A DNA stretch of 57,088 nt from Acidobacteriaceae bacterium (GTDB lineage: Bacteria; Acidobacteriota; Terriglobia; Bryobacterales; Bryobacteraceae). Positions 3,074-19,217 of the stretch are shown here, piece by piece. The position numbers were made by a program, and so were the translations under genes. Positions within the stretch are counted from its first letter, which is position 1. Each line of letters starts with the position of its first letter. The notes under the pieces are model-generated. The model saw only the letters and a program-made list of their open reading frames with translations, ran no database searches and was not told the DNA's origin. Location of the stretch: assembly GCA_019244055.1 (NCBI GenBank), contig JAFATG010000289.1, positions 1-57,088 of the forward strand, read 5' to 3'.

Positions 3074-3812
3074 CGAACCGCTCGCGAGGCAGAGCGTTCG
3101 CCGGTTCTTAAAGCAGCACAATGATATCGAGCTATTGGGCGAATGCGCTGACGGGCAGTCCGCGATTGACGCGATTCTAGCCCACAAACCCGATCTCGTT
3201 TTCCTGGATGTCCAGATGCCAGAGGTAGACGGATTTGCCGTGGTCAATCGCATCGGAGTTGCGGAAATGCCGGCAACGGTTTTCGTTACGGCCTACGATC
3301 AATACGCTCTGGCCGCCTTTGATGCAAACGCCCTGGATTACCTGCTGAAGCCGTTTGGAAAGACTCGCTTCGACCGGGCGCTGGCGCGTGCTCGCGAGCG
3401 GATTGCCCTGCACGCGGATCGCGAGTCGATTCGACAATTCCTCACAGCGATGGAGGGTATGGCGCCAGCTCGAAACTACATCGACCACTTACCCGTCACT
3501 CAAAACGGCCGCATTGTCTTCGTCAAGGCACGGGACATTGAATGGATTGAGTCTGCGGGGAACTACGCTCGCGTCCATACTCACTCACACCAGCTTGATA
3601 TCCGTGAAACGCTGGCGAATCTGGAGAGGAGGTTAGATCCGCGCCAATTTGTCAGAATTCACCGCTCCACCATTGTGAATTTACAGTATGTAAAAGAAGT
3701 GCATCCGTGGTTCCACGGGTATCATCTTGTGGTCCTCAAAAGCGGAGAAAAACTTCGCATGAGCCGATATCAAAAGGAGGTATCGGCAAAACTCGGCATC
3801 CGCGGTCGTTGA
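3045..3812 (+). CDS. LytTR-family response regulator
   Basis: DNA-binding response regulator of 255 residues. The receiver domain (about 1-120) shows the acidic pair IIDDEP near residues 9-10, the phosphoacceptor Asp55 in LVFLDVQMPE, and LLKPFGKTRF with the conserved Lys. A LytTR DNA-binding domain follows at about 150-250 (GRIVFVKARDIEWIESAGNY, then FVRIHRSTIVNL and a C-terminal SRYQKEV). The start lies inside the kinase gene, which indicates translational coupling. Acidobacteria encode many such LytS/LytTR pairs; no target operator could be recognised with confidence. Confidence 0.94.
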   Translation: MSIRALIIDDEPLARQSVRRFLKQHNDIELLGECADGQSAIDAILAHKPDLVFLDVQMPEVDGFAVVNRIGVAEMPATVFVTAYDQYALAAFDANALDYLLKPFGKTRFDRALARARERIALHADRESIRQFLTAMEGMAPARNYIDHLPVTQNGRIVFVKARDIEWIESAGNYARVHTHSHQLDIRETLANLERRLDPRQFVRIHRSTIVNLQYVKEVHPWFHGYHLVVLKSGEKLRMSRYQKEVSAKLGIRGR

Positions 3813-3899
3813 TGATTTGGATGTCGTTCAAGCTTTAGCGCTGTCGAGCCCCGTTTTGGCGTTGGTATGGAGGGTGTAGTGGCGGTAGCGGGCCGGTAA

Positions 3900-6529
3900 T
3901 CACTGGCTGCGCAGGGATTGGGTTGGCTCGAGGTGCGCCGCGCGGAAAGCTGGAATACAGGTAGCGGCGAGGGCAACACACAGGATTACGGCGAGTACAA
4001 CGAAATAGACGACTGGCGCACTGAACTGCGTGCCATTAAACATAGCGCTGAAGACTCGTGGCAATGGCAAAGCGAGAACCACACCAACGGCTGAGCCGAT
4101 GGCCCCAGTTTTTAACCCATCCCGCAGGATCATATTGAGGATTTCGGAACTGCCTGCGCCGAGCGCCATCCGAATCCCGATTTCGTGCGTGCGCTGGCCG
4201 GTAGAGTACGCCACCATTCCGTATATTCCAATCGCGGCCATGACGAGCGCGAGTAGTGCGAAGGAGCCGAGGATGCGCACGAATAGCGGGTTCCCACGGC
4301 GGTTCTGATCGACAAATTGCTGCATCGTTCTGACGTTTGCTACCGGTAGCTCCGGATCGATTTCCGAGATCGTGCGGCGCAGCGGCGGGATCAAGCTCTC
4401 AGGGCTAGCTTCGGTGCGTAAGAGCACGCAAAGCGAGGCGGTCGGGTCCTGCGCGAGAGGCTCATAAATCTCCGGATCGACGCGAGTGTCTTCGGAGTCG
4501 CTCTTGATGTCGCTGACAACGCCGATGATTTCACTCCAGGCATTAGGCGCATCTTTGCCGGCGAACCTTAGCTGAACGCCAAGCGGATTTCTTCCGCCGA
4601 GAACGCGGCGAGCGAACTCCTGATTCACTAGAACGATTCGCGGTGCTTTTGCGTCGTCGGAATCCGCAAAGCGGCGGCCACGCAGGATGCGGACGCGCGT
4701 GGTCTGGAAGTAGTCGGGCGTGATTATAACGTGTAAGGCCCTGGGCGGTGCGTTTGTCAGGTTTTCGCGCTCGCCTTTGATGAGGAATGGAGTACTCGAT
4801 GGGCTGCTGCCGGGAAGATCAGACGAAAGCGCGGCACTGCCGACGCCAGGAAGCTGACGCAGGCGGGTGAGTAGCTTTGTTGCGAAGAGACGCTGCGCAT
4901 CGGCATCGTTGTACTGAGCGCGATCGAGAGTCAAGTTTGCGGTGAGCAGGTGATCCGTGGGGAATCCGAGGTTCTGGTGTTCGATGTGAAAAATGGCGTG
5001 GATCAGCAGACTGCTTCCGATGAGCAGAAACAAAGCGAGCGCGATTTCGGAGGTGACCAGGAGGGCGCGGAGACGATTTTGCGACCGATCCGAGGAAGCC
5101 GTGCGAGTCTCGTTCTTGAGATCGGTATTAAGGTCCCGCCGCACCGATTTGATGGCCGGAGTCAATGCGGAGAGTAGAGCCGAAACGACGGAAATAATCA
5201 GGGCGTAGAGGAGAACCTTTCCGTCCAGGCCGACAGGAACTGCACCAACGAAATCGTTGAAACTCAGATTGGCGCGCACCACCGCGATGCCAACATACGC
5301 GAGCAGCAGGCCGACGCCTCCACTCAGAAGAGAGATGACCAGGCCCTCCGTTAGAAGCTGACGAACAATACGCACCCGGCTCGCGCCGATCGACAAGCGA
5401 ATCGCAAGTTCTTTCTGACGGCGTGCCGCTCGGGTGAGCAACAGACCGGCGACATTGGCGCACGCGATAAGGAGAATGAAGCCGACCGTGATCATCAATA
5501 CCACGAGCGCTTTGCGGATGCCGAAGTTACGAATGAGGTAATCCGGAAGGGGTCGCATCGAGGCGCCCCAGCGGCGTTCCGAAGCCGGAAATTCGATTTC
5601 CGCGCGATGCGCGAAGGCGGTTAGTTGTGACCGTGCCTGGGCCGGAGACACGCCACGAGCGAGGCGCGCGAACAAGTAAAGATAGCGCTCGTGGCGAGCC
5701 GCTACCGCTTGATCGGCTGCGGTTAAAGTGAGCGGCGTCCAAAGCTGCGGAAGAAACCCGAGGAAACGAAAATCGTCGAGCATGACCCCAATGACGGTGT
5801 GATCTTCACGGTCAAGGCGGACCGTGCGCCCGACAATGTCTGGGTCCGAAGCAAAGCGGCTGGCCCACAGGGCGTAGCTAAGAATCAGGACGTGGTTGCG
5901 ACCGGGCAGGTCTTCACCCGCAACGAAGGTTCGGCCCAGAGCGGGCTTAGCGTTGAGCAGGCTGAAGTAGTTAGGAGAAACGGAGGCATACCGGACGGTT
6001 TCGGGCTGACCTTTGATGGTGAGACCGGCGCTTTTGTAATCGTCGGCGGCAGCTATTCAGAAAAGACATTCGTATGGCTGCGCCAGGCAAGGTAGTTCGG
6101 CACGGAGACTGGGTTTAAGTCCGCGACTTCGCTGGCGTTCGGATCCACGGAAGAGAGCACGTAGACGTGTTGCGGGTCCTGACCCGGCAGGTGCGGCAGG
6201 AGAAAGGCACTCACCAGGCTGAACATCGTGGCGTTGACAGCGATACCGAGCGCAAGCGTTATGACGGCAGTGGTGGTGAAACCGGGAGTCTTGACGAGTT
6301 GCCGGCACGCGAATCTGATATCGGCCCAAAAGCTTTCGAGTTTCGGCCATTGCCACACTTCGCGGCTGCGTTCTTCGACCAACGTGCGGTTTCCGAAAGA
6401 ACGGCGCGCCGCGAGTTCAGCCTCTTCGCGGCTGAGGCCGTCTGTTATCAGTTCATCAATGGTTTCGCTGATGTGTTCGGAGATGGAGACTTGGATATTG
6501 GAGTAGCGCTGACGGCGGAAGATGCTCAT
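3900..6529 (-). pseudogene. ADOP-type ABC permease, broken by a single frameshift
   Basis: MacB/FtsX-type permease of the long acidobacterial form. The first piece (6529 to about 6056) encodes an N-terminal helical region, then DIRFACRQLVKTPGF and the first membrane helix, and ends in VFSE followed by TAG. The family sequence resumes one frame away with AAADDYKSAGLTIKGQ and runs on without a break through PNYFSLLNAKPALGRTF, the three central helices, the second extracytoplasmic domain and the C-terminal helices to the stop at 3900, about 875 residues in all. One missing A in the GAATAG context (about 6053-6058) would restore SEIAAAD. The gene is thus either a very fresh pseudogene or carries a one-base sequence error. 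It starts 6 bp after a PadR gene, the usual pairing for this family. Confidence 0.85.
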
Positions 6530-6535
6530 CGGGAC

Positions 6536-6880
6536 CTACGCTTCCGCGGCGGCGAGCACGCGGGTAATACCGGCTAACATGCGGTCGAAGCTCGACACTT
6601 CCCGTTCGAGCTGGCGCTGACCGTTGGCCGTGAGGTGATAGATGCGAGTGGGCCGCCCCTTGACGGAGATGCCGGGTTCGGATTCGAGCAGGCCTTCTTT
6701 CAATAAGCGCTGCAGCGCCGGGTAGAGAGAGCCTTCTTCGACTTTGAGGAGATCATCCGAGACCTGTTTGATGTGTTTGGCCAGCGCATAGCCATGCATC
6801 GGCTTGAGCCGTAGCGAATGGAGGATCATGAGTTCCAGCGCGCCGGAGAAAAGATCGCGCTGATCCGCCTTTTTCGGCAT
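6536..6880 (-). CDS. PadR-family transcriptional regulator
   Basis: Small winged-helix repressor of 114 residues. DLFSGALELMILHSLRLKPM leads into HGYALAKHI, then the wing region EGSLYPALQRLLKEGLLES and GRPTRIYHLTANGQRQLERE, ending in a dimerisation helix. These are the hallmarks of short PadR proteins. The gene sits 6 bp upstream of the ADOP permease in the same direction, so the pair is likely autoregulated; a strong inverted repeat stands 20 bp upstream of its start. PadR proteins respond to phenolics or drugs in studied cases; the effector here is unknown. Confidence 0.95.
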   Translation of the reverse strand: MPKKADQRDLFSGALELMILHSLRLKPMHGYALAKHIKQVSDDLLKVEEGSLYPALQRLLKEGLLESEPGISVKGRPTRIYHLTANGQRQLEREVSSFDRMLAGITRVLAAAEA

Positions 6881-6900
6881 GAGTTAAGCTTAGCACCCGT

Positions 6901-6923
6901 ATAGCTATTTTGTAAATAGGTAT
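6901..6923. promoter_or_regulatory. Likely PadR operator (near-perfect inverted repeat)
   Basis: ATAGCTATTT, three bases, AAATAGGTAT: the arms match at 9 of 10 positions. The site is AT-rich in a GC-rich neighbourhood and lies 21 bp before the PadR start codon, where a self-repressor would block transcription of the PadR-ADOP operon. The assignment to PadR is inference from position and from the comparable site at 24179-24213. Confidence 0.6.
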
Positions 6924-7127
6924 TCCTAAATGAGGCTCGCAAACGACTCCACCTCAGCTAACATTGGCGTGAGCACAGCTCTCAGTTCAGGACTGAGATC
7001 GGCTGTCATTCCAGTGCTTACCTGAAAAGCGCCGGTCTCCAGGCAACACGACGTCGCGGAAGTGCCCCGAACACTCCGTGAATTTTCGGTGGGTTGGGTA
7101 GGGAGAGGGAGGTCCCGCTCGGATCGG

Positions 7128-7457
7128 CTATTTCTGTTTGTTACCGGAAGGCTTGACTCTGATAAAGAGTTTGTCCCATTTGTGATGCTTGCCCGAAGGC
7201 CGACCACCCGGAAAGGTCCGGTTCAACAGTTGGATATCTGAGATCAAGTTAGCGTCCATCCAGCGCCAGTTAGGAAGTTTGTGGCTGCTGGAGCCTGCGA
7301 TCTGGTATCCGAGGAGCTTGACGGTGCCATTTTTAATTCCGTAGTCGTGCGGTTCCAGAATACGCTCCCTACGTTTGTAAGACAGCCGGATCAAGCGTGC
7401 TTCGGCGATCGCTTGCCACAAGAGGGGATTGATGTTCGGCTCGGATTCCGACTGCAT
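7128..7457 (-). CDS. Small WYL-like protein
   Basis: Protein of 109 residues from the ATG at 7457 (MQSESEPNINP). It contains WQAIAEARLIRLSYKRRERILEPHDYG in two overlapping blocks, followed by GYQIAGSSSHKLPNWRWMD, which resembles the beta-rich ligand-sensing WYL fold (the REPHDYG-type strand and the W-R-W turn) without any DNA-binding or other domain. The frame stays open upstream to 7541, but the extra residues look unlike protein. WYL domains bind nucleotides or other small ligands; stand-alone copies have no fixed function. No operon partner is evident. The 240 bp between its stop and the PadR gene hold only the operator. Confidence 0.6.
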   Translation of the reverse strand: MQSESEPNINPLLWQAIAEARLIRLSYKRRERILEPHDYGIKNGTVKLLGYQIAGSSSHKLPNWRWMDANLISDIQLLNRTFPGGRPSGKHHKWDKLFIRVKPSGNKQK

Positions 7458-7631
7458 GGGCTTTTGCCTCTTATATTTGATGCCGCTGAGTATAGCTTGG
7501 ACGCATTGAGGTGCGCGGCACTGCGAAGCACGATACGGCATGGGTGAAAGCGCCTACTTAGCTGGCATGGAGCGCCTCACGATAGTTCCACGGCATCCAC
7601 CGGGCGGTTGTGCAGCTACATCCGTGGCGTG

Positions 7632-7971
7632 TTTCGGCGTTTTCCTGTGAAGAAGTGCCACGTCACAACGAGCCGCTCCCAGCAAATCGATCGGACCGAA
7701 GGTCAACCTGACGCCTGGGTCTATCAGTGTTACGGTGGATAGACTTCACACGCAAACGGCTCGTAAGTCGGATTGAGAGTGCGGCTGATAGGCGGATCCG
7801 GATCGTGGAGCTCACTTCTCGAGCGGGAAAGCCCTTATCGTTCCTGCCTTTCGGCAGGACGCGGCCGCAATCCGCAAAGTCTTCGCTGAAATTTCATCAG
7901 AACATCTAGATCAACTCGAGCGGACTCTGAAACGTGTGGGAAAGCGTGCACAACAGATGTGTGTTCAATAA
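7632..7971 (+). pseudogene. Degenerate MarR-family regulator
   Basis: Fragments of one MarR protein can be read by switching frame at least three times: HNEPLPANR near 7650-7680, KVNLTPGSISVTVDRL near 7700-7745, RLVSRIESAADRRIRIVELT near 7757-7820, and AFRQDAAAIRKVFAEISSEH up to a normal TAA at 7969-7971. Together these give the recognition helix, the wing (DRR) and the C-terminal dimerisation helix in the right order. The N-terminal third is not recognisable. Several independent lesions mean genuine decay, not one sequencing error. The following 290 bp (7972-8262) show no gene. Confidence 0.75.
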
Positions 7972-8262
7972 GAAGAAAAGCAATGAGGGGTCTGGATACA
8001 GAGATCGGAAACTGGCGATCCTGATAAGCGTATTTGACGATGCCATCATCGGGGGGGAATAGTCGAGATGAGTAGGTGCGAGTCGAAGCGTCCACCCAAA
8101 TGAAAACGATGAACTCCCTGATTCCTTTTTGAAAAGTGCCCGACCACGAAGACTTCGGGCGCGTAAGACTGTATGTCTGTTCCTTTCACCAAAACTCAAA
8201 GCGACTCTCCAGCACGATACAGAGTGCTCGAAGGCCAAAGTTCGGTGTCAATCGACACGGCC

Positions 8263-8925
8263 TCATCCGGTCGCAGACGTTGTTCTGTCTCGTGAAGATG
8301 GACCGGTTGCTGCTACCATTCTTGTTACAATAGCGTGCGCTTCGCGTTCTTCCGCACGAAGATTTGGGCCGAGCATCGATCCGAGAAACACCAACCCGCC
8401 TGAGCCAAAACGGCGCCTCATCGCCACTGGCGTGTTCCCGTACCACGCGATCGTTTCGGCGCGCGCACAGGCCACCGGAATCACGGACGAAAAAGATCTG
8501 GTCAGCGCCGCGGACGGCCAGCGATAGTGAATGAACATCCCGGTGGTTCTGAGCTGATCGGGTGAGAGCGCAACCGGCTGCATTAGGTTAACACCGAAGA
8601 CCTCTCGCAGAATTCGGGCCTGCGTGGCGAATTCCCGTGCCTCGCAAGCTATAAGTGCGCTCTCCCAAATGACCCAGGTACCCGCAAGGGCCCGTTCGCG
8701 TAGGCGGCATGCGAGCGATGCGTCGATCGCAGAAACGCCGCAAAGCAGGATGACGTTTGAAGATCCAGGCGCTATTAGCGTTCGGAATCCATCCGCCGAT
8801 TCTTGTGAGAGGCAATTCGGTTCGGAGATGATTTCGAACTCGGCCACTTGGGCACGCGTGGCCCTAAGTCCCGCAGCAACCGGGAGGATTAGCGCTTGCT
8901 CAAAAAGTTGTCGCCGGGTCTGCAC
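8263..8925 (-). CDS. Exported protein of unknown function
   Basis: Protein of 220 residues that begins MQTRRQLFEQALILPVAAG, a short twin-Arg, hydrophobic leader compatible with export by Tat or Sec. The rest alternates strands and helices (NVILLCGVSAIDASLACRL, GTWVIWESALIACEAREF, GSGGLVFLGSMLGP), which recalls a flavodoxin-like or class-I amidotransferase-like fold, but I recognise no catalytic triad and no named family. It starts 6 bp after the isomerase-like gene, so the two are co-transcribed and may act on the same sugar-like substrate; this is inference from context only. Confidence 0.65.
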   Translation of the reverse strand: MQTRRQLFEQALILPVAAGLRATRAQVAEFEIISEPNCLSQESADGFRTLIAPGSSNVILLCGVSAIDASLACRLRERALAGTWVIWESALIACEAREFATQARILREVFGVNLMQPVALSPDQLRTTGMFIHYRWPSAALTRSFSSVIPVACARAETIAWYGNTPVAMRRRFGSGGLVFLGSMLGPNLRAEEREAHAIVTRMVAATGPSSRDRTTSATG

Positions 8926-8931
8926 GCTTCG

Positions 8932-9771
8932 TCACAAATTGCCGGAGATTACGCGGTTCATCGCAGCCGCGGTATCGTAAATCTGCTGGTCGGGAGCGTA
9001 GGTATACTTCGCTTCCATCTCCGCGATTAACCAGCCGTCGTAGCCTACCTTCGTGAACGCGTCTCTGATCGCGCGCCAGTTGTTATCGCCCAAAAAAATG
9101 TTGGTGTACACGCTCTGGTTTCCGCAGCGGCCTCTATGCGTATGAACATCTTTGAGGTGAACGCGGGTAATCTTCGGACCGAGAATTTCAATCCACTGTT
9201 CCGCGAATCCCGTGTCGTGGATATTCCCGACGTCGAGGTGAATTCCGACCCACGGGCTATCGACATCGCTCAGGAAGGCGTTGAATTCCCGCGGGCTCAG
9301 CAAAAACTTCTGTTCTGAGCAGCAGTTCTCGACTCCGATTTTCACTTTCGCAGCGGCTGCATCCGGCGCCAGTTTCTTTAGGGAATCGAGGGTGCGCTTG
9401 TAGACCTCATTGTAGGGCGCGTCGCTCGTAACCAGGCCGGCCACGATCAGAATGGCATCGGTGTTGAAAATCTGTGCCGCTTCGATCTGCCGCTGGATGT
9501 GGCGGAAGGCCGCCTCCCGCTTCGAAGCATCGCGCGCCGAAACATTCTCCTTCCAATCCAGCGAGTTCGATATATTCGAGACTCGAAGGCCGGCATCCTC
9601 GATCTTCTGGCGCATTTCGCGCATCTGCGAATCGGTGCTCCCTATTTGGAACCATTCGCGCTCGCCTAGCCACAGCTCGACACCGTCGTAACCGGCGCGT
9701 TTGAGGAGCTGTAAGCCGTTCTCGAACGACACGCCTTTGGGAAAAATATTGTCACCGATTGATTTCTTCAT
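8932..9771 (-). CDS. Sugar phosphate isomerase/epimerase-like TIM-barrel protein
   Basis: Xylose-isomerase-like TIM-barrel (AP endonuclease 2 superfamily) protein of 279 residues. It carries the usual metal-ligand blocks in order: a Glu in KIGVENCC, HLDVGNIHDTG, RVHLKDVHTH, and the final Glu in LIAEMEAKY. Members isomerise or epimerise keto-sugars or inositols in the cytoplasm; the substrate is not predictable. There is no signal peptide. It heads a two-gene unit with the exported unknown downstream. Confidence 0.88.
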   Translation of the reverse strand: MKKSIGDNIFPKGVSFENGLQLLKRAGYDGVELWLGEREWFQIGSTDSQMREMRQKIEDAGLRVSNISNSLDWKENVSARDASKREAAFRHIQRQIEAAQIFNTDAILIVAGLVTSDAPYNEVYKRTLDSLKKLAPDAAAAKVKIGVENCCSEQKFLLSPREFNAFLSDVDSPWVGIHLDVGNIHDTGFAEQWIEILGPKITRVHLKDVHTHRGRCGNQSVYTNIFLGDNNWRAIRDAFTKVGYDGWLIAEMEAKYTYAPDQQIYDTAAAMNRVISGNL

Positions 9772-9843
9772 ACGAAGCGGCTGAATTAGCGCTTCCTTAC
9801 GGTAGCGGTTCTGAAGAAATCATATCCGAGTCGACGCAACTTT

Positions 9844-9871
9844 CGAGGGCGATCCGGTTAGACCGCCCTCG
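9844..9871 (-). terminator. Hairpin terminator
   Basis: CGAGGGCG and CGCCCTCG form a perfect 8-bp GC-rich stem around a 12-base loop. It begins 6 bp after the stop of the small gene ending at 9878. The T-run that follows on the leftward strand is poor, so efficiency is uncertain. Confidence 0.6.
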
Positions 9872-9877
9872 CGTTTA

Positions 9878-10069
9878 CTACTCTTGCGGGAAGGTGAAAT
9901 CGCGGTTGTAACCGCTACCAGCATCCTGGTAGAGATCCGGCGGATCCAGCGGTGCCGATCCCACCTCAGGCCCTTCCAAAAGAGCCTTCTGATAAGCCTT
10001 TTCGCGGTTGACCAGATCACTGAGCATAGGCCCGGTGATGGTCCGCTTCTGGCGATCACTCGCTTTCAT
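9878..10069 (-). CDS. Small hypothetical protein
   Basis: Predicted soluble protein of 63 residues starting MKASDRQKRTITGPMLSDL. It has a charged helical first half (LVNREKAYQKALLE) and a Pro/Asp-rich tail (PLDPPDLYQD). I do not recognise a family. Support comes from its sensible composition, an ATG start and a GC-rich hairpin directly after its stop. It stands alone between the isomerase unit and the amidohydrolase operon. Confidence 0.45.
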   Translation of the reverse strand: MKASDRQKRTITGPMLSDLVNREKAYQKALLEGPEVGSAPLDPPDLYQDAGSGYNRDFTFPQE

Positions 10070-10225
10070 GCCGGAACAGTACCATGCCGTAGTGGCGAGC
10101 CGGCCCTCCGCAGGCCTTCGGCGATTTTTTTCTTCTGTCTAAGTAACTGTCGTCAAACCTGTTTCGCCTCACTATGACAAAATAGGCGGTTCTGATTGGC
10201 GCTTGTGACTGAGGCAAGGATGCGA

Positions 10226-11620
10226 ATGAGATCTGTTTATCTGATGCTACCCGCGCTGCTATGGGCCAGCGTGGCGCTTCGCGCCGAAGTGCCGTCCGCA
10301 ATTGCAATTAAGGATGCGCACGTGGTGACCGTCAGCGGGGAAGATCTTCCGAAAGCAACCGTGATCTTGCGCGACGGACTGATCCAGGATGTTGGGGCCA
10401 ACGCATCGATTCCCCCCGATGCCTGGGTGATCGACGGCGCGGGGTTGACCGTTTATCCCGGCTTCATCAATGCGCTGAGCACTTGGGGAATTCCGCAGCC
10501 GGGGCCGAACCGGGCTGTCGCGACAGCAGGGAACGTGCCGCAGCAAGCCGCGCCGGCAACTCCCGCGCCGAACCCGGCCCCACGATCGCACGGACCCGAG
10601 GACCGGCCCCAAACCTATTCCTTCGAGCGAGCCGCAGACATGGTGGAACCGAGTGACTCGCGTCTCGAAGCGGTCCGAGCCGCGGGCTTCACCACGTCTG
10701 CTACCTTCCCGAACCGCGGTATCGTGGAAGGTCTCGGTGCGCTGATTGATCTGGCAGGCGAGCGTGGCCGCGACATGGTAATCGCGCAGCCAATCGGTCA
10801 GCAGATCGAATTCCGTGTCGGAGGCGGCGGAATGGGGCGTAGCTTCCCTTCCTCTTTGATGGGCAACATCGCATACGTCCGCCAGCTCTATCTCGATCTA
10901 GGTCAGTACAAGCAGGCGAAAGAGACCTATGTGGCGCATCCGAACGGCAATCGCCGTCCCGAGTATGACCACGATCTGGAGGGGCTCGCGGAATCGCCGC
11001 GTCTGTTGCTTCCGGCAGACGAGTGTCAACAGGTTGATCGTATTCTGAATTTCGGCCGTGAGCTGAAGGTCCCGTTCGTGGTTTATGGCTTGCATGAAGG
11101 CTATCGCCGGATCGATGAACTGAAACAGGCGAATGTGCCTGTATTGATCAGCTTGAAGTGGCCCGAAAGGCCGAAAGACGCTGATCCGAACGATATTCCG
11201 AACTATCGCGATCTCCTCATGCAAGAGCAGGCACCGGCTGTGCCGGGCATGCTGGCAAAGGCGGGAGTGAAATTTGCATTCTATTCGGATGGCGTGGACA
11301 GCGCCCCCGATTTGAAGAAAGCACTTAAGAAAACGGTCGATGCGGGACTCTCGCGCGCGGATGCCATTCGCGCGTTGACGGTGAATGCGGCGGAGATCTA
11401 CGGAGTAGGAGACCGGCTGGGCAGTATCGAGAAGGGTAAGATCGCGAACCTGGTAGTCACAAAAGGCGAAGCTTTCGACGACAAAAGCACTGTCGAGTAC
11501 GTGTTCGTGGATGGAAAGGAATTTCAGCCTTCGAAAGAACAGCAGCAGCCGCCCCAGGGAGGCGAAAGACGGGGAACGAATCCGGCAGACGAGGGTGATG
11601 CAAACGGGGGTGTGAATTAA
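10226..11620 (+). CDS. Exported amidohydrolase-like protein 1, lacking the HxH motif
   Basis: First of three coupled amidohydrolase-superfamily proteins, about 464 residues. The ATG at 10226 is preferred because AAGGA lies five bases upstream; an in-frame ATG at 10220 is possible. A signal peptide (MRSVYLMLPALLWASVALRA) precedes the beta-sandwich (IAIKDAHVVTVSG, YPGFINAL). In catalytic members 'PG-x-ID-x-H-x-H' follows, but here the sequence is PGFINALSTWG, so both metal His are absent. The C-terminal part keeps the superfamily framework (SRADAIRALTVNAAEIYGVG, GSIEKGKIANLVV). It probably lost catalysis or works as a partner of the next protein. A Pro/Ala-rich insert lies near residues 105-130. 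Confidence 0.85.
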   Translation: MRSVYLMLPALLWASVALRAEVPSAIAIKDAHVVTVSGEDLPKATVILRDGLIQDVGANASIPPDAWVIDGAGLTVYPGFINALSTWGIPQPGPNRAVATAGNVPQQAAPATPAPNPAPRSHGPEDRPQTYSFERAADMVEPSDSRLEAVRAAGFTTSATFPNRGIVEGLGALIDLAGERGRDMVIAQPIGQQIEFRVGGGGMGRSFPSSLMGNIAYVRQLYLDLGQYKQAKETYVAHPNGNRRPEYDHDLEGLAESPRLLLPADECQQVDRILNFGRELKVPFVVYGLHEGYRRIDELKQANVPVLISLKWPERPKDADPNDIPNYRDLLMQEQAPAVPGMLAKAGVKFAFYSDGVDSAPDLKKALKKTVDAGLSRADAIRALTVNAAEIYGVGDRLGSIEKGKIANLVVTKGEAFDDKSTVEYVFVDGKEFQPSKEQQQPPQGGERRGTNPADEGDANGGVN

Positions 11621-13017
11621 TGCGACGCCTGATACCGATCGCGTGCGCGATAGCGATGCTCGCCGGCCTGAGCGGCGCTGAGACCATTCTGATCCGGAAC
11701 GCGACCGTGCTGACCGTCACGAAAGGAACCGTACAGAACGGCAGCGTGCTGGTTGAAAACGGCAAGATCGCCGCTATCGGGAAGAACGTCAGCGCTCCCG
11801 CGGACGCAACCATCGTGGATGCGACCGGCAAATATCTGATGCCGGGAATCATCGATTGCCATTCGCACACCGCGATCGAAGGCGGCGTAAATGAAGGAAC
11901 CGTTTCGGATTCTTCGATGGTGAACATTAAAGATGTCATCGATCCGGAAGACATAAATATCTATCGCGGCCTGGCCGGCGGTTTGACTGTTTCGAATGTG
12001 CTGCACGGGAGCGCCAACGCAGTCGGCGGCCAAACTATCGTGATCAAGCTGCGCTGGGGCAAGACGGCCCGGGAGATGCTGTTCGAAGGCGCGACTCCGG
12101 GCATCAAGTTCGCCTTGGGCGAGAATCCGAAGCGGCAGGGCTACCCGTCGCAGAATTTTTTTAGCCAAGGCCCCGCACCGGAGCGCCGCTTTCCGGGAAC
12201 TCGCATGGGCGTGGAAGAAGTGATTCGGGAGAGCTTCACGGACGCGAAGAACTATCAGGCGGAATGGAAGCAGTATCACGACGCCGTAGCGCGCGGCGAG
12301 CACCCGATCCCGCCAAGAAAGGACCTGCGTTTGGAGCCGTTGGTGGAAGTGCTCGAAGGAAAACGCTACGTTCACGCCCATTGCTACCGTTCCGACGAGA
12401 TTCTTATGCTGCTGCGCGTGGCCGATGAGATGGGATTCAAGATCCGTACCTTGCAGCATGTGCTCGAAGGCTATAAGGTCGCTAGAGAGATCGCGGAGCA
12501 CGGAACCGGCGCATCGACATTCAGTGACTGGTGGGCCTACAAGATCGAGGCATACGATGCGACGCCCTATAACGCGGCGATTATGACGCGCAAAGGCGTG
12601 GTGGTTTCGCTCAATTCGGATTCCGACGAGTTGCAACGGCATCTGAACCTGGAAGCTGCGAAGGTCATGCGGTACGGCGGCCTGAGCGAGACCGAAGCAT
12701 TGGCTATGGTCACGATTAATCCGGCCAAGCAGCTTGGAATCGACAATCAGGTCGGCTCGATCGAAGTGGGCAAATCGGGCGACATGGTGCTGTTTGACAA
12801 GCATCCGCTCGATTACTATTCCAAAGTGCAGAAGGTCTGGATCGATGGGCATGACTACTTTGATCGCGATAAGGACCTGGAGACTCGCCCGGAATTTCAG
12901 AAAAAGAAGAAGGCGTTGGAAGACAAACTGAAGGTGGCGGAGGATACCGGTACGCGCCAGGGTAAGCGCAACGCCTCAAATGCCGCCAGCACGCCGATGA
13001 TTGAGGAGAATCAGTGA
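11620..13017 (+). CDS. Exported amidohydrolase 2 (imidazolonepropionase-like), with intact HxH
   Basis: Second of the trio, 465 residues, with a signal peptide (MRRLIPIACAIAMLAGLSGA). The metal-binding segment MPGIIDCHSHTAIEGG is complete, later His residues occur in YVHAHCYRSDE and TLQHVLEG, and SLNSDSDEL supplies the Asp expected near the C-terminal end of the barrel. The tail has GGLSETEALAMVTINPAKQL and VGSIEVGKSGDMVLFD, as in imidazolonepropionase-like and dipeptidase-like exported hydrolases. The start shares one base with the previous stop (TAATG), so translation is coupled. It is probably periplasmic and acts on cyclic amides or peptides; the substrate is unknown. Confidence 0.93.
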   Translation: MRRLIPIACAIAMLAGLSGAETILIRNATVLTVTKGTVQNGSVLVENGKIAAIGKNVSAPADATIVDATGKYLMPGIIDCHSHTAIEGGVNEGTVSDSSMVNIKDVIDPEDINIYRGLAGGLTVSNVLHGSANAVGGQTIVIKLRWGKTAREMLFEGATPGIKFALGENPKRQGYPSQNFFSQGPAPERRFPGTRMGVEEVIRESFTDAKNYQAEWKQYHDAVARGEHPIPPRKDLRLEPLVEVLEGKRYVHAHCYRSDEILMLLRVADEMGFKIRTLQHVLEGYKVAREIAEHGTGASTFSDWWAYKIEAYDATPYNAAIMTRKGVVVSLNSDSDELQRHLNLEAAKVMRYGGLSETEALAMVTINPAKQLGIDNQVGSIEVGKSGDMVLFDKHPLDYYSKVQKVWIDGHDYFDRDKDLETRPEFQKKKKALEDKLKVAEDTGTRQGKRNASNAASTPMIEENQ

Positions 13018-14330
13018 TGGAATTCCCGAAATTATTTTTAGTTGCGCTGGCACTCTCCGGTTCCGCGCTCTTCGGCGCTGCCGATAATTCCGTCGTGATC
13101 CGCAATGTGACCATTCATCCGATAACGGCGCCCGATATTTCCAACGGCTCGGTTCTGGTGATCGACGGTAAGATAGCCGAAATCGGAACACGAATCGGGG
13201 CGCGCTCGGGTGCGCGGACCGTAGACGGGCACGGTCTGCAGCTCTATCCCGGCCTGATCAACGCCGCAACCAACGTCGGATTGGAAGAGATCTCATCACT
13301 ACGCGATTCGGTGGATCTGGATGAGATCGGAATGTTCAATCCGGAGCTGAGAGCCGAGATCGCCTGGAATCCATCGAGCCAGCACATTGAGGTCACGCGC
13401 GCCTCTGGAATTACCACGGTCATCAGCCTGCCGGGCAGCGGCGCCCGCAGCTTTCGCGGCGGACCGGGAACAGTGATCAGCGGGCAGGGCGCATTAATGC
13501 ATTTGGAGGGATGGACATGGGAGCAAGCGGCGGTGAAGCCGAGCGCCGTGATGGACATGATCTTCCCGCAGGTGGAAACCGTTCCTCGGCGGTTTGCGGC
13601 GTTTCTCGCTCAGCCGGCGCTTTCCTATCAGGAACTGCAGCGGCAGTATCGTGAGCGCCTGAGGCAGACCGGCGAATTCTTTGAAGATGCGCGACGTTAT
13701 GAAAAGGCCAAGGCGGCTTCTGGACCGGACTTTCGGCGCGACGTCCGGCTGGAGGCGATGACTCCGGTGATCCAAGGCAAGACGCCGTTGCTGGTGCAGG
13801 CGGAACGGGAGCAGATGATCAAGGAGGCGGTGGCGTTCGCGGACAAGGAGAAGGTGAAGATCATCATCGCGGACCCGCGCGAGATCGGATCGACCGGGGC
13901 GCTGCTGAAACAGCACAATATTCCAGTCGTGCTCGGCAAGACCTTCGACCTGCCTATGCGCGATGACGATCCGTACGATGCCCCATACACCCTTCCTGGG
14001 GACTTCTATAAGGCGGGTGTGAAGATCTGCTTTGGAACGTTTGACGTCGAGTTTGCGCGGAACGTGCCGTTCGAGGCAGCGCAGGCCGTCGCGTTCGGAT
14101 TGCCGCGCGAGGAAGCGCTCAAGGGGCTGACCATCAATAGCGCGGAGATTCTGGGCGTTAGCGATCAGCTAGGTTCGATCGAGAAGGGTAAAGTGGCAGA
14201 TCTGATTCTGACGGACGGCGATCCGATGCAGGCGAAGACGAATATCAAGCAGATGTTCATCGCGGGCCGGGAGGTGAGCCTCGAGTCACGGCACACGCGC
14301 GAGTATGAGAAGTGGATGAAACGGCCGTGA
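13017..14330 (+). CDS. Exported amidohydrolase-like protein 3, lacking the HxH motif
   Basis: Third of the trio, 437 residues from the ATG at 13017, which shares one base with the upstream stop (TGATG). A signal peptide (FPKLFLVALALSGSALFGAA) is followed by the N-terminal sandwich and YPGLINAATNVGLEEI, where the HxH of the family is replaced by AxN. Later barrel His and Asp ligands are also not evident in ADPREIGSTG or CFGTFDVEFA. The C-terminal framework is retained (REEALKGLTINSAEILGVS, LGSIEKGKVADLILTDGD). Like protein 1 it appears to be a non-catalytic homologue made together with the intact enzyme. Confidence 0.88.
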   Translation: MEFPKLFLVALALSGSALFGAADNSVVIRNVTIHPITAPDISNGSVLVIDGKIAEIGTRIGARSGARTVDGHGLQLYPGLINAATNVGLEEISSLRDSVDLDEIGMFNPELRAEIAWNPSSQHIEVTRASGITTVISLPGSGARSFRGGPGTVISGQGALMHLEGWTWEQAAVKPSAVMDMIFPQVETVPRRFAAFLAQPALSYQELQRQYRERLRQTGEFFEDARRYEKAKAASGPDFRRDVRLEAMTPVIQGKTPLLVQAEREQMIKEAVAFADKEKVKIIIADPREIGSTGALLKQHNIPVVLGKTFDLPMRDDDPYDAPYTLPGDFYKAGVKICFGTFDVEFARNVPFEAAQAVAFGLPREEALKGLTINSAEILGVSDQLGSIEKGKVADLILTDGDPMQAKTNIKQMFIAGREVSLESRHTREYEKWMKRP

Positions 14331-14345
14331 AGCCGGGAATCGGAA

Positions 14346-15806
14346 ATGAGGGATAAAGTTCCCACGTTGCTGGTTCTCCTCTTCTGTTTCTGTGCTGCGT
14401 CCCGGACGATCGCCGCTACGCGCGACTACGAAGCTTTCGGCAAACCTATTCAGCCCGCTGCCGCTGACCCCGTAATCACTTCCGCTTTGAAGGAGGTCTC
14501 ACAGGAGGAGATTCAGCACACGATCGGGAAACTCATCAGTTTTGGCAATCGCAACACGCTCTCCAGCGTGACGACGGATCAGAAACGGAGCGAAGGTGTG
14601 CTGGCCGCTGCCGACTGGATCGAAGCGCAGTTCAAGACTTATTCCGCAACGTGCGGCGTATGCCTGGAGGTGAAGCGCGACACCTTCACAGCGCCGGTGC
14701 AGAACCGTATTCCGAAGCCGACCACGATTGTGAATGTGTACGCCATTCTGCGCGGGTCCGATCCTGTGCAAGCGCGGCGCATGTACCTGGTGACGGGTCA
14801 TTATGATTCGCGGAACTCCGACACGCTCGACACGTATGGAGCGGCGCCTGGCGCTAATGACGATGCGAGCGGAGTGGCCGTGAGCCTCGAATGCGCACGG
14901 GTTTTGAGTAAGCACAAATTCCCCGCCACACTCGTCTTTGCCGCGGTCGCAGGCGAAGAGCAGGGGCTTGTCGGCAGCGCTCATTTGGCGCAGCTGGCGA
15001 AAGGGGAGGGCTGGCAACTCGAAGGCGTCTTAAACAATGACATCGTCGGCGGTGATACGACTCCGGGAGACAAGCTCCAAGACGAATCCGCCGTCCGCGT
15101 GTTTTCGGAGGGCATTCCCGCGACGGCTACGCCTGAAGAGATCCACCAGATTGAGGCGATCGGGATCGAGAATGATTCACCATCCCGCGAGCTGGCGCGT
15201 GAGGTCCTGGAAGTAAGCGAGACCTATCTGAAACCCGGGCAGACTGAGCGCGGTTCCGGCCTGGAAGCCGTGGTGGAGCAGCGGCATGACCGTTTTCTGC
15301 GCGGGGGCGATCACGCCTCCTTTAATCGCGAAGGGTTTCCAGCGGTGCGGCTCACGGAGTGGCGCGAGAACTTTAATCATCAGCATCAAAATCTGAGAAC
15401 CGAAAATGGAATCGAGTTCGGCGACCGAATCAAGTTTGTTGATTTCGCATACGTAGCAAGAGTCGCCCGACTGAATGCTGCTACTCTCGCCATGCTCGCC
15501 TCCGCTCCGGGAAAACCGCGCGACGTCCGCATCGTAACCAGAAATCTCGACAACAATACAACTCTCACCTGGAAGGCTCCCGAGGGTGCGCCGTCCGGAA
15601 CCTCGTACGAAATTGTCTGGCGCGTTACGACTGCGAGCAACTGGCAATACTTCGCGAAGTTAACCAGCGCAGGCGACAGCAGCACAGGCGAAGAACATTC
15701 GGCCACTCTTCCGATTTCAAAGGACAATGTCATCATCGGCGTGCGCTCAGTGGATTCGGCTGGGCACATGAGCCCAGCGGTCACGGCGATACCGGTCAGG
15801 CGGTGA
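14346..15806 (+). CDS. Secreted M28-family metallopeptidase with a C-terminal fibronectin-III-like domain
   Basis: Zinc aminopeptidase-like protein of 486 residues. It has a signal peptide (VPTLLVLLFCFCAASRTIAA), then the co-catalytic zinc blocks of the M28 family: VTGHYDSRNSD, GANDDASGVA, AVAGEEQGLVGSAH, NNDIVGG and, late in the domain, FLRGGDHASFNREGFPAVR. A beta-rich tail from about residue 395 (RDVRIVTRNLDNNTTLTWKAP, YEIVWRV) reads like a fibronectin type III module. It begins 15 bp after the amidohydrolase trio and probably belongs to the same operon, suggesting a set for degrading exported or environmental peptides and amides. Confidence 0.92.
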   Translation: MRDKVPTLLVLLFCFCAASRTIAATRDYEAFGKPIQPAAADPVITSALKEVSQEEIQHTIGKLISFGNRNTLSSVTTDQKRSEGVLAAADWIEAQFKTYSATCGVCLEVKRDTFTAPVQNRIPKPTTIVNVYAILRGSDPVQARRMYLVTGHYDSRNSDTLDTYGAAPGANDDASGVAVSLECARVLSKHKFPATLVFAAVAGEEQGLVGSAHLAQLAKGEGWQLEGVLNNDIVGGDTTPGDKLQDESAVRVFSEGIPATATPEEIHQIEAIGIENDSPSRELAREVLEVSETYLKPGQTERGSGLEAVVEQRHDRFLRGGDHASFNREGFPAVRLTEWRENFNHQHQNLRTENGIEFGDRIKFVDFAYVARVARLNAATLAMLASAPGKPRDVRIVTRNLDNNTTLTWKAPEGAPSGTSYEIVWRVTTASNWQYFAKLTSAGDSSTGEEHSATLPISKDNVIIGVRSVDSAGHMSPAVTAIPVRR

Positions 15807-16432: not shown

Positions 16433-17074
16433 ATGCGAGGAACCCTATTCAGTAGCTTCGTTTTGGCCAGCATGAGCTTCTGCCTATTAGGGGGCGGGGC
16501 TGCACTGGCTCAACAACCAGGTGGCGGACAGATGCCTCAGTCCTCTCCCACGCGTCCCGGTGCGGCGGGAAACCCCAATAATCCCAACAATCAGATGGGC
16601 CAGAATCCCGATGCCATGACGACCACCAAGGTCGATGACAAGAAGTTCGTTAAAGACGCCGCGATTGGCGGAATGACAGAGGTCGAGCTAGGAAAACTAG
16701 CAACTGAGAAAGGTTCGAGCGACGCCGTCAAGCAATACGGTCAAAAACTGGTCGACGATCACACAAAATCTAACGACGAGCTGAAGCAGATTGCCAGCGC
16801 CGAAAACGTCAACATTCCGAGTTCGCTCGATTCCAAACACCAGTCTCGAATCGACAAGTTATCGAAACTGTCCGGTCCGAGCTTCGATAAAGCCTTTCTC
16901 AAGGATGCTGTGAAAGATCACGAGCAGGATATATCGGAGTTCCAGAACGAGGCTCAGGGCGGCTCAGATCCAAATGTCAAGCAGTTTGCATCCAAGAACT
17001 TACCAGTTCTGCAGGAGCACCTGACTGCGGCCAAAGACCTAAGCAAGACAGAAAAGGGGAGTTCAACCAAGTAG
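16433..17074 (+). CDS. Exported DUF4142 protein
   Basis: Protein of 213 residues with a Sec signal peptide (SFCLLGGGAALAQQ), a low-complexity Gly/Pro/Asn-rich linker to about residue 60, then a helical DUF4142 (ferritin-like-fold) domain: KFVKDAAIGGMTEVELGKLA, QYGQKLVDDHTKSNDELKQI, KAFLKDAVKDHEQDISEFQN and a final helix. Such proteins are periplasmic and often stress-linked, but no activity is established. A good ribosome site (AAGGAAG) stands before the ATG. It is monocistronic: 180 bp follow the broken hicA, and the next gene faces it. Confidence 0.9.
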   Translation: MRGTLFSSFVLASMSFCLLGGGAALAQQPGGGQMPQSSPTRPGAAGNPNNPNNQMGQNPDAMTTTKVDDKKFVKDAAIGGMTEVELGKLATEKGSSDAVKQYGQKLVDDHTKSNDELKQIASAENVNIPSSLDSKHQSRIDKLSKLSGPSFDKAFLKDAVKDHEQDISEFQNEAQGGSDPNVKQFASKNLPVLQEHLTAAKDLSKTEKGSSTK

Positions 17075-17093: not shown

Positions 17094-19217
17094 TTAAGCC
17101 CAAAGATCCCGATTCTTGAACTTGCGCATCAACCCGCGCACGATGCGCTCAGTAAGAGTTCCGAAGGGCTGGTCGGTGGTGACATAGGTCCAGACGGCTC
17201 CCCGCTCTTGCGGATCTTCTCCGCCGCCAGCCTCGGCTTCGGCCAGCCGTCTCGCTGTTTCTTCCGGAATGGAAGTCTCGAGCTCAGGAAACCACTGGTC
17301 TATCTGTCTCAGGTACTCGAGATGCGGATTGCGGCCCGCCAGGGAGAGCCAGTGCAGTCCTGCACGGTAATCGGCCAGGCGAGCCAGATAGTCTGCCCAG
17401 AGATCGTCAATGGTTCGCAGCGTAATCAGCCGTTCCAGCTCCGAGCCGCACGGCAGCGAGCCATCCAAAATCTTCTGCCGATAACTCTGAATACGGTTCC
17501 GCTGTCCCTCAACCGGTATCTCGTATTTCTGGAGAAAAATCCGCAAATCCAGATTTTGTCCTTCCACTAACGGCTGCACGCTCTCTGGGTCCGTGCTGTA
17601 TTTCGGGTTGAGATCGGCGCCCTTCACCATCAGCTCGTCTTGAAGTGACACAAAGAAGCGCGAGCAACCTGGATCACCTTGACGCCCGGCGCGACCTCGA
17701 AGCTGATTGTCGATGCGCCGGCTCTCGTGTTTATTCGTGCCGATCACGTACAATCCGCCGAGAGATGCCAAGCCTTCTCCAAGTTGAATATCGGTCCCGC
17801 GCCCTGCCATGTTGGTCGAAATCGTGACCGCGCCTCGTTGCCCTGCCTGTGCGATGATGGCGGCCTCCTGTTCATCGTTCTTGGCATTCAGCACGTGGTG
17901 CGGGATGTCGGCAAGAGAGCGGCTTAACTCCTCGGATTCGCGGACGCTCGCGGTTCCAACCAGGACCGGCTGACCCGTTGCGTGCGCCCGTCGAATTTCT
18001 TCGATGGCGGCCCGGGTCTTTTCGGCCCTCGTCGCGAACACTTCGTCAGGATGATCGACGCGGATCATCGGCCGGTTTGTGGGAATTACTTCCACAGGCA
18101 GCAGGTACATCGTTTGAAACTCCACTTGGGAACTGGCCGCCGTACCGGTCATCCCGCAGAGGTGAGGATAGAGCGCGGCCATATGCTGCATGGTGATCGA
18201 CCCCAGAATCATCCCCTGAAGCTTCGCAGCAACCCGTTCTTTAATCTCAATGGCGGTGTGTAGGCCCGCGGGCCAGCGCCGGTCCTGCGCCGTTCTTCCT
18301 TTGAACTCGTCTATCATTTCGACCGCGCCGTTTTTGACCACGTAGTCCACGTCGCGATGGAGCAGTGCGTGAGCGTGCAAAGCGTCCTGCACGGCCGTGA
18401 ATAGCTGCAGATTGTTTTCGTCGAACAGATTGCGGCAGCGCGTTGCGTGCTCCACAGCGCGGATCCCCTCATCCGTCAGCCCGACGTTCCGGCCGCCAAT
18501 CTCAGTTCTGTAGTGCACACCGCTGCGGAGGCTGCGCACAACCTGATCTGCCAGAAATGCCAGCGCGCTTTCATCATTGCTGCCACCGGCAATCACCAAG
18601 GGAATGCGCGCCTCATCGATCAGAATCGAATCGACCTCATCAATGACCGCAGCGTGAAACGGACGGTGGACCTGCTCGCGCAGTTCAAGCGCAAGCTGAT
18701 CGCGAAGGAAGTCAAACCCGGCTTCGTTGGCGGTCGCGTACGTGACATCGCAGGCATAGGCGGCGCGCCGCTGATCCGGCGTCATTCCTTGCTGCACATA
18801 CCCGACCGAAAAACCTAAGCGACGATAGATGTCTCCCATCCAGCAAGCATCGCGGCGCGCGAGGTAATCGTTGGCGGTGAGGACATGCACTCCCATTCCT
18901 TCGTGTGCGTACCACGCAATGGCGGGCACCGCCGCCAGCGTCTTGCCTTCACCGGTCTGCATTTCGGCAATACTTCCCCGGGTCAAAGCAAGCGCGCCCC
19001 GGAACTGTACGTCAAACATTTGCTGCCCCAGCGAGCGCGACGCTATCACGGCTGTCAAGGCGATTAGTCGGAGTAAGTCCTTCCTTGCTCCGAATGCCAG
19101 CGCGTCTAAGTCATCATCGCTCAACTGAGCAAACTCTCTTCGCATCGCGTTGATTTTTCCGATGGCGGATGCATCGCGGCGCGAAGGTGCAAAAACAGAA
19201 TGCAAAAATGGGTGCAC
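17094..19217 (-). CDS. Short SecA-like translocase ATPase
   Basis: SecA paralogue of 707 residues; housekeeping SecA is usually about 850-1000. Walker A is MQTGEGKT at residues 86-93, motif II is DEVDSILIDEAR at 193-204, the preprotein cross-linking region and helicase motifs follow, and GRAGRQGDPG lies near residue 510. The sequence ends soon after the helical scaffold (LMRKFKNRDLWA), so the C-terminal linker and the zinc-binding Cys motif that bind SecB and lipids are absent. It therefore looks like an accessory SecA with specialised cargo, not the essential copy. No SecY-like or glycosylation genes lie nearby. A small secreted ORF stands just upstream in the same direction. Confidence 0.92.
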   Translation of the reverse strand: MHPFLHSVFAPSRRDASAIGKINAMRREFAQLSDDDLDALAFGARKDLLRLIALTAVIASRSLGQQMFDVQFRGALALTRGSIAEMQTGEGKTLAAVPAIAWYAHEGMGVHVLTANDYLARRDACWMGDIYRRLGFSVGYVQQGMTPDQRRAAYACDVTYATANEAGFDFLRDQLALELREQVHRPFHAAVIDEVDSILIDEARIPLVIAGGSNDESALAFLADQVVRSLRSGVHYRTEIGGRNVGLTDEGIRAVEHATRCRNLFDENNLQLFTAVQDALHAHALLHRDVDYVVKNGAVEMIDEFKGRTAQDRRWPAGLHTAIEIKERVAAKLQGMILGSITMQHMAALYPHLCGMTGTAASSQVEFQTMYLLPVEVIPTNRPMIRVDHPDEVFATRAEKTRAAIEEIRRAHATGQPVLVGTASVRESEELSRSLADIPHHVLNAKNDEQEAAIIAQAGQRGAVTISTNMAGRGTDIQLGEGLASLGGLYVIGTNKHESRRIDNQLRGRAGRQGDPGCSRFFVSLQDELMVKGADLNPKYSTDPESVQPLVEGQNLDLRIFLQKYEIPVEGQRNRIQSYRQKILDGSLPCGSELERLITLRTIDDLWADYLARLADYRAGLHWLSLAGRNPHLEYLRQIDQWFPELETSIPEETARRLAEAEAGGGEDPQERGAVWTYVTTDQPFGTLTERIVRGLMRKFKNRDLWA

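Follow-up and report, generated by a model that had tools for sequence, protein, structure and literature searches.

Why would a bacterium keep three overlapping amidohydrolase genes, all seemingly for export, when only the middle one encodes a complete metal site? The question arises from a 57,088-nucleotide stretch of an Acidobacteriaceae bacterium (assembly GCA_019244055.1, contig JAFATG010000289.1; hereafter, the window), in which three genes, P1, P2 and P3, follow one another (Table 1). Our answer is that the trio is probably one exported heteromeric metallo-amidohydrolase, with P2 as the catalytic subunit and P1 and P3 as pseudoenzyme subunits packed on it. The same threesome, often fused, recurs in many phyla and therefore looks like one multi-part enzyme; that it assembles physically, that it sits in the periplasm or envelope and that P2 is its catalyst, we infer from the evidence below.

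All three proteins pass the cut-off of the Amidohydro_1 profile (PF01979; 61.2, 69.9 and 46.4 bits for P1, P2 and P3, against a cut-off of 25). Both junctions are one-base overlaps (TAATG at P1/P2, TGATG at P2/P3; both gaps -1), and each N-terminus is hydrophobic and signal-peptide-like by inspection; an initial annotation made from the letters alone had described three exported proteins overlapping by one base. That annotation had also placed DCHSHT in the middle protein only, with NALSTWG in P1 and NAATNVG in P3, which proved correct; its statement that the later ligands are missing as well is right for P3 and needs a small correction for P1, which keeps the last Asp only. At the six ligand columns, P2 reads HHKHHD, P1 LTEPGD and P3 ANIQDF. 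By analogy, H81, H83, K163, H254, H280 and D334 of P2 are presumably the metal ligands. P2 thus carries the HxH, Lys, His, His and Asp of a catalytic amidohydrolase, a set that implies a binuclear centre, and P1 and P3 lack it.

Table 1. Features of the P1-P2-P3 locus, in window coordinates
Feature	Position	Strand	Remark
P1: pseudo-amidohydrolase, predicted exported, 464 aa	10226..11620	+	keeps 1/6 metal ligands
P1 NALSTWG, replaces HxH motif	10469..10489	+	sequence, column alignment
P2: metallo-amidohydrolase, predicted exported, presumed catalytic subunit, 465 aa	11620..13017	+	HHKHHD complete
P2 DCHSHT, first two presumed metal ligands H81, H83	11854..11871	+	invariant in 153/153 distinct rows
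P2 K163, presumed bridging (carboxylated) lysine in GIKFALGENPKR	12106..12108	+	invariant save one masked X; aligns with 3ooq Lys
P2 H254, presumed metal ligand	12379..12381	+	153/153
P2 H280, presumed metal ligand	12457..12459	+	153/153
P2 D334, presumed metal ligand/general base	12619..12621	+	153/153
P3: pseudo-amidohydrolase, predicted exported, 437 aa	13017..14330	+	keeps 0/6 metal ligands
P3 NAATNVG, replaces HxH motif	13260..13280	+	sequence, column alignment
P3 stretch with near-invariant acidic E91, D100, E103	13287..13325	+	146, 148, 144 of 148 rows (two duplicate loci counted)

This division of the metal site holds over 136 P1, 153 P2 and 146 P3 distinct rows and is therefore not a matter of chance. 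These counts include the window's own proteins and omit two duplicate loci (L186, a duplicate of L104, and L214, a duplicate of L117), which are still present in the column-invariance counts (148 and 155 rows) and in the locus and fusion counts; three domains shorter than 300 amino acids were left out of the column alignment. All six ligands are present in 152 of the 153 P2 relatives, the remaining one having a masked residue. Among P1 rows, 98 keep none, 31 keep one and 7 keep two; among P3 rows, 89 keep none, 47 one, 7 two and 3 three. The pattern PG followed by HxH was found in 143/153 P2, 0/136 P1 and 1/146 P3 sequences. The ligand columns are invariant in P2. In P1 and P3, by contrast, all of them but the H280 column, which is mostly Gly in the sisters (58/64 in P1, 47/76 in P3), exceed 74-99% of columns in variability. 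With such unusual variability in five columns out of six, the metal site has been abandoned there. In a tolerant search, allowing up to three residues from each ligand position, at most four ligand types were recovered, in 1/136 P1 and 10/146 P3 sequences, and no alternative conserved metal site was seen at or near the ligand columns, where we looked for one.

The loss of ligands has not been accompanied by a general loss of constraint. Compared with the nearest relative (L149; identities of 70%, 81% and 73% for P1, P2 and P3), silent differences far outnumber amino-acid-changing ones, site for site, in all three genes, with silent changes saturated for P1 and P2 and nearly so for P3, where the ratio of nonsynonymous to synonymous rates (dN/dS) is ~0.10. 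Near-invariant residues specific to P3 are E91, D100, E103 and R128 (numbered from ATG 13017; counting from GTG 13014 gives E92, D101 and E104 for the acidic ones). Of the three acidic columns, only that of E103 is acidic in P2, where it is likewise Glu. In P1, the near-invariant positions carry Gly, Pro, Ala, Leu or Thr, together with Q220 and D224 (numbered ten higher in the source alignment), the latter common to the window's P2. Beyond its ligands, P2 has invariant G167-N169, R195, Y212, Y256, K308 and E310 (155/155).

The best solved relative is the same for all three proteins: 3ooq, an amidohydrolase of Thermotoga maritima solved without an assigned function, which we take to bear the locus tag TM0814. 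It is matched by sequence over the full length (E 7e-64 for P2, 5e-33 for P3 and 9e-23 for P1), and it is the top fold match both for the P2 domain of a P1-P2 fusion model (Z 43.2, root-mean-square deviation 2.1, 371 aligned) and for the P3 domain of a P2-P3 fusion model (Z 43.4, root-mean-square deviation 2.7, 363 aligned). The P1 domain of the P1-P2 model matches amidohydrolases at Z ~25. Judged by full-length sequence match, and for P2 and P3 also by fold, the trio falls in a 3ooq-like subgroup. 3ooq shares with P2 the HxH, GIK/GLK..GENPKR, TRMG and HAH motifs in a pairwise alignment, although, unlike the trio, its PDB entry holds one sequence only. A quick add-on alignment read 3ooq as HHAHHD; we took its Ala for a misalignment because another alignment pairs the 3ooq Lys with K163. 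None of the 25 NCBIfam models listed per protein reached its cut-off, among them Xaa-Pro dipeptidase (NF051886, XaaProDiPepCaul, 500 bits; P1 51.9, P2 62.7, P3 51.5) and imidazolonepropionase HutI (TIGR01224, 298.15 bits; P1 36.2, P2 63.7, P3 34.8), and the profile libraries searched label the pieces merely as amidohydrolase family.

We then asked how faithfully the three genes travel together. In an even draw of 199 Acidobacteriota genomes, the window's own included, P2-like proteins were found in 94 (E 1e-60), P1-like in 91 and P3-like in 97 (both at E 1e-20, where the P1 and P3 queries also match sister proteins). A P3-like match was present in 94/94 of the P2 genomes and a P1-like match in 89/94. 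Under strict cut-offs set above the cross-matches (P2 1e-90, P1 and P3 1e-36), P3 occurred in 86/86 P2 genomes and P1 in 68/86, and the association of P2 with P3 had a Fisher p of ~1e-49, uncorrected for relatedness. Among 148 genomes of the phylum of G201, Bacteroidetes by its record title, P2 was found in 86 (E 1e-60), P3 in 87 (E 1e-30) and P1 in 69 (E 1e-20); the 86 P2 genomes include 85 with P3 and 68 with P1. The sole P2 genome without P3 (G208) is no clear counter-example, because its P1-P2 frame continues into a masked region. P1 had seemed to be missing from 18 of the 86 (E 1e-20), a reading we rejected after a profile found a divergent P1 adjoining P2 in all seven that were checked. 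In two genomes (G244 and G260) P3 lies ~1 and 1.4 megabases from P2 on the same contig and is kept all the same, so the co-occurrence is not just operon inertia.

At the level of loci, we kept 76 of the 80 acidobacterial stretches taken; the other four (L130, L132, L133, L136) are clusters of divergent paralogues, and L144, whose P1 is truncated, enters the counts without that protein. All three classes are present at 63 of the 76, P2 and P3 at 12 and P1 only at one, whose genome has P2 and P3 on another contig (L080/L081). The gene trio is therefore strongly conserved, and the outcome that would have spoken against the initial annotation, homologues with HxH but no conserved trio, was not what we found, the relatives of P1 and P3 being without HxH. 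A second set came from scanning GTDB species genomes with the P2 alignment, from which the best 80 of at least 593 confirmed stretches were kept (the named loci); as best matches to P2 they form a biased sample, and two loci are common to both sets. All three classes are present in 68 of these, and the 12 incomplete loci comprise three P1-P2 fusions with P3 on another contig (L173, L176, L207) and nine next to the end of a contig or record, where P1 or P3 was not seen. The taxa covered are Acidobacteriota, Gemmatimonadota, Planctomycetota, Bacteroidota, Pseudomonadota, Verrucomicrobiota, Armatimonadota, Marinimicrobia, Zixibacteria, Krumholzibacteria and Ignavibacteria, named after the titles of the genome records, with some of the names updated; metagenome bins are numerous among them, and a few records may be misnamed.

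Live and dead proteins are often fused. Single-frame fusions at the 76 acidobacterial loci comprise 17 P1-P2, 19 P2-P3 and one P1-P2-P3, with 39 loci unfused; at the 80 named loci they comprise 38 P1-P2, 8 P2-P3 and five triple fusions (one cut by a contig end), with 29 unfused. A P1-P3 fusion was not seen in either set, and P1 is placed after P2-P3 in seven loci. The active and inactive paralogues are genetically coupled, up to fusion, as expected of a heteromeric enzyme. A crude test found the signal-like stretch in unfused frames (P1 60/77, P2 56/64, P3 98/117) and in fused ones (P1-P2 45/54, P2-P3 26/27, triple 5/6). The 187 junctions between unfused genes were measured from the upstream stop to the closest start codon available, which gave a four-base overlap in 85 and a one-base overlap in 24; choosing the closest start biases these counts towards overlaps. 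In the window, other starts are possible for P1 (ATG 10220 or TTG 10196) and P3 (GTG 13014).

AlphaFold2, run on a naturally occurring P1-P2 fusion (L225, with 34 fused rows), gave a predicted local distance difference test score (pLDDT) of 80.2 and a predicted template modelling score (pTM) of 0.82, a value that in our judgement two 400-residue domains would hardly attain if they were not packed together. A mixed alignment of fused and single-domain rows (A4) was not used for prediction, because its consensus put P3 rows on the P2 half. Fusions in three arrangements, unlinked co-occurrence and the packed P1-P2 model therefore support a heteromeric enzyme, much as the initial annotation had supposed in proposing one active protein with two inactive homologues.

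Several observations weigh against this interpretation. The P2-P3 fusion model (L181, 10 rows) is weaker (pLDDT 75.9, pTM 0.77), and the other four models of that fusion reach pLDDT of only 64-66. In its fold comparison some rows extend over the two halves, perhaps because these are intertwined or because the model is in error. P2 may be active without partners, since 3ooq, with nearly the same active-site motifs, was solved as a single protein; the invariant P2 residues except Y256 are also present in 3ooq in the printed alignment, and the P2 pocket therefore looks complete by itself. Some genomes without P2 have matches to the sisters: at the loose cut-offs in Acidobacteriota, P3 in G033, G057 and G110 and P1 in G080 and G110; on the Bacteroidota side, weakly, P3 in G232 and G325 and P1 in G326. 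The three P3 sequences that keep three ligands belong to P2+P3-only loci (L141, L145, L146). Finally, the complex of P1, P2 and P3 is something we infer, and a shared pathway whose members do not touch would also account for the co-occurrence and the operon order.

What else could P1 and P3 be? They might be independent exported proteins that bind substrate or product, derived from dead amidohydrolases and co-expressed with P2 without forming a stable complex. Operon structure and co-occurrence alone would fit this, and the near-invariant acidic residues of P3 just past the lost HxH could bind a ligand, but covalent fusion in three arrangements across many phyla and the packed P1-P2 model make it unlikely. 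Less likely still, P1, P3 or both could be enzymes whose active site has moved or works without metal, giving the trio two or three different activities. Purifying selection and the conserved E91, D100, E103 and R128 of P3 speak for such a site; the near-invariant residues of P1 named above, with D224 common to the window's P2, do not, nor do the variability of five ligand columns and the outcome of the tolerant search.

It is barely credible that P1 and P3 are decaying paralogues on their way out. They have lost their catalytic residues, and no P1 is found at 11 P2+P3-only acidobacterial loci, but full-length frames persist in many phyla, amino-acid changes are much rarer than silent ones, several fusion arrangements join the sisters to P2, and the retention of P3 in 94/94 and 85/86 P2 genomes speaks strongly against decay for P3. 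We accordingly discarded both decay and a chance local oddity, on the grounds of cross-phylum conservation and few amino-acid changes, in agreement with the earlier view that the outer proteins are not simply decaying.

P1 nevertheless seems to have been truly lost in some Acidobacteriota, where it would be dispensable. Eleven acidobacterial stretches hold only P2 and P3 (L134, L135, L137-L143, L145, L146), and a search with a P1 profile turned up no separate P1 open reading frame there. In 11/11 two-part genomes (ten with P2+P3-only loci plus G066; G054, which carries L143, was left out) all matches to the window's P1 (E 1e-10) fall on the P2 or P3 locus, a single-sequence search that a divergent P1 elsewhere in the genome would escape.

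A tree of 100 rows, a chosen subset, places P1 in one clade (Shimodaira-Hasegawa-like approximate likelihood ratio test, SH-aLRT, 100), P2 in one clade (SH-aLRT 100) but for one L130 domain inside it, and 26/30 P3 sequences in one clade (SH-aLRT 99). Each clade spans many phyla, and similar phylum groupings repeat in each. The P3 proteins of L134, L137, L141 and L145, all P2+P3-only loci, branch outside the main P3 clade, so P3 was possibly inactivated more than once. The four divergent clusters (L130, L132, L133, L136) hold other pairs, adjoining or fused, in which every HxH domain reads HHKHHD and every partner keeps at most two ligands; L130 (G006, 3673-11370) has three live and three dead amidohydrolase domains in a row. 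Live and dead members of these clusters form mostly separate, mirrored clades, and live-dead pairing therefore looks like a habit of the 3ooq-like branch. A further adjoining pair, with HSH versus HTV after PGL, lies in L237 (G173, 4110-6736).

As we picture the heteromeric enzyme, old duplications would have given rise to P1 and P3, which would have lost the metal site and kept the fold, packing against P2 in places held by identical copies in homomeric relatives. By analogy with the superfamily, the reaction of P2 would be the hydrolysis of an amide-type bond, carried out beyond the cytoplasm by a binuclear metal centre, and P1 and P3 would be dedicated structural, regulatory or substrate-positioning subunits that shape, gate or regulate the active assembly; any dependence of P2 on them for activity is putative. 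A bolder version, on which we are evenly divided, is that this is an undescribed and ancient exported enzyme, near-obligate and spread over at least ten phyla, whose live amidohydrolase always comes with a dead P3 and usually with P1 as well. Live-dead pairing would then be general in the 3ooq-like clade and would have evolved separately in the four divergent clusters, so that dead subunits would serve the chemistry, for example by gating or positioning an envelope-derived substrate.

Xaa-Pro dipeptidase, the Arg/Lys carboxypeptidase Cc2672 and ochratoxin-A hydrolase share the fold, by sequence and model comparison, although P2 is far below the curated Xaa-Pro dipeptidase cut-off (62.7 versus 500 bits). 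To our knowledge, these three enzymes work without HxH-less sisters. Our guess is that the substrate could be small peptides or N-acyl amino acids, because these enzymes cut such bonds. The nearest precedent is the aspartate transcarbamoylase of Pseudomonas aeruginosa, where an inactive dihydroorotase chain is reported to be required for active enzyme (PMC7053772). There, too, an inactive amidohydrolase-superfamily chain is a stoichiometric subunit, but the active partner is a transcarbamoylase rather than a sister amidohydrolase, and there is one pseudo-chain. Trypanosome S-adenosylmethionine decarboxylase with its prozyme, and deoxyhypusine synthase, are likewise reported to pair an active or impaired enzyme with a dead paralogue, but belong to unrelated families and have one dead partner, not two (PMC5201418, PMC3663545).

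In full-text searches that left most subscription papers uncovered, we found nothing on tandem, inactive or heteromeric amidohydrolases like the trio, nor on TM0814/3OOQ. The data support a three-part enzyme with two pseudoenzyme subunits that is widespread, carried by roughly one in two of the genomes sampled in two phyla (94/199 and 86/148), and new within the literature searched. If this is true, two of the three pieces need no longer be mistaken for hydrolases, and proteins with two or three fused amidohydrolase domains would be explained. The separate, half-fused, fully fused and two-part forms offer a natural series for probing the role of pseudoenzyme subunits.

The neighbourhood gives no argument about the substrate, because even the largest shared families recur at too few of 161 loci (a set that includes the window, duplicates and divergent clusters): peptidase M20 at 12 loci and an amino-acid permease at 9. 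In the window, a co-directional M28 peptidase with a weak fn3-like C-terminus (14346-15806, +) begins 15 bases past P3; it is outside the 14 largest shared neighbour families. It is followed by a DUF4142 protein with a signal-like N-terminus (16433-17074, +) and a 707-amino-acid SecA relative on the opposite strand (17094-19217, -), which scores 672 bits against a cut-off of 814 for the listed SecA models and 656 against 725 for mycobacterial-type SecA2, and is maybe an accessory SecA.

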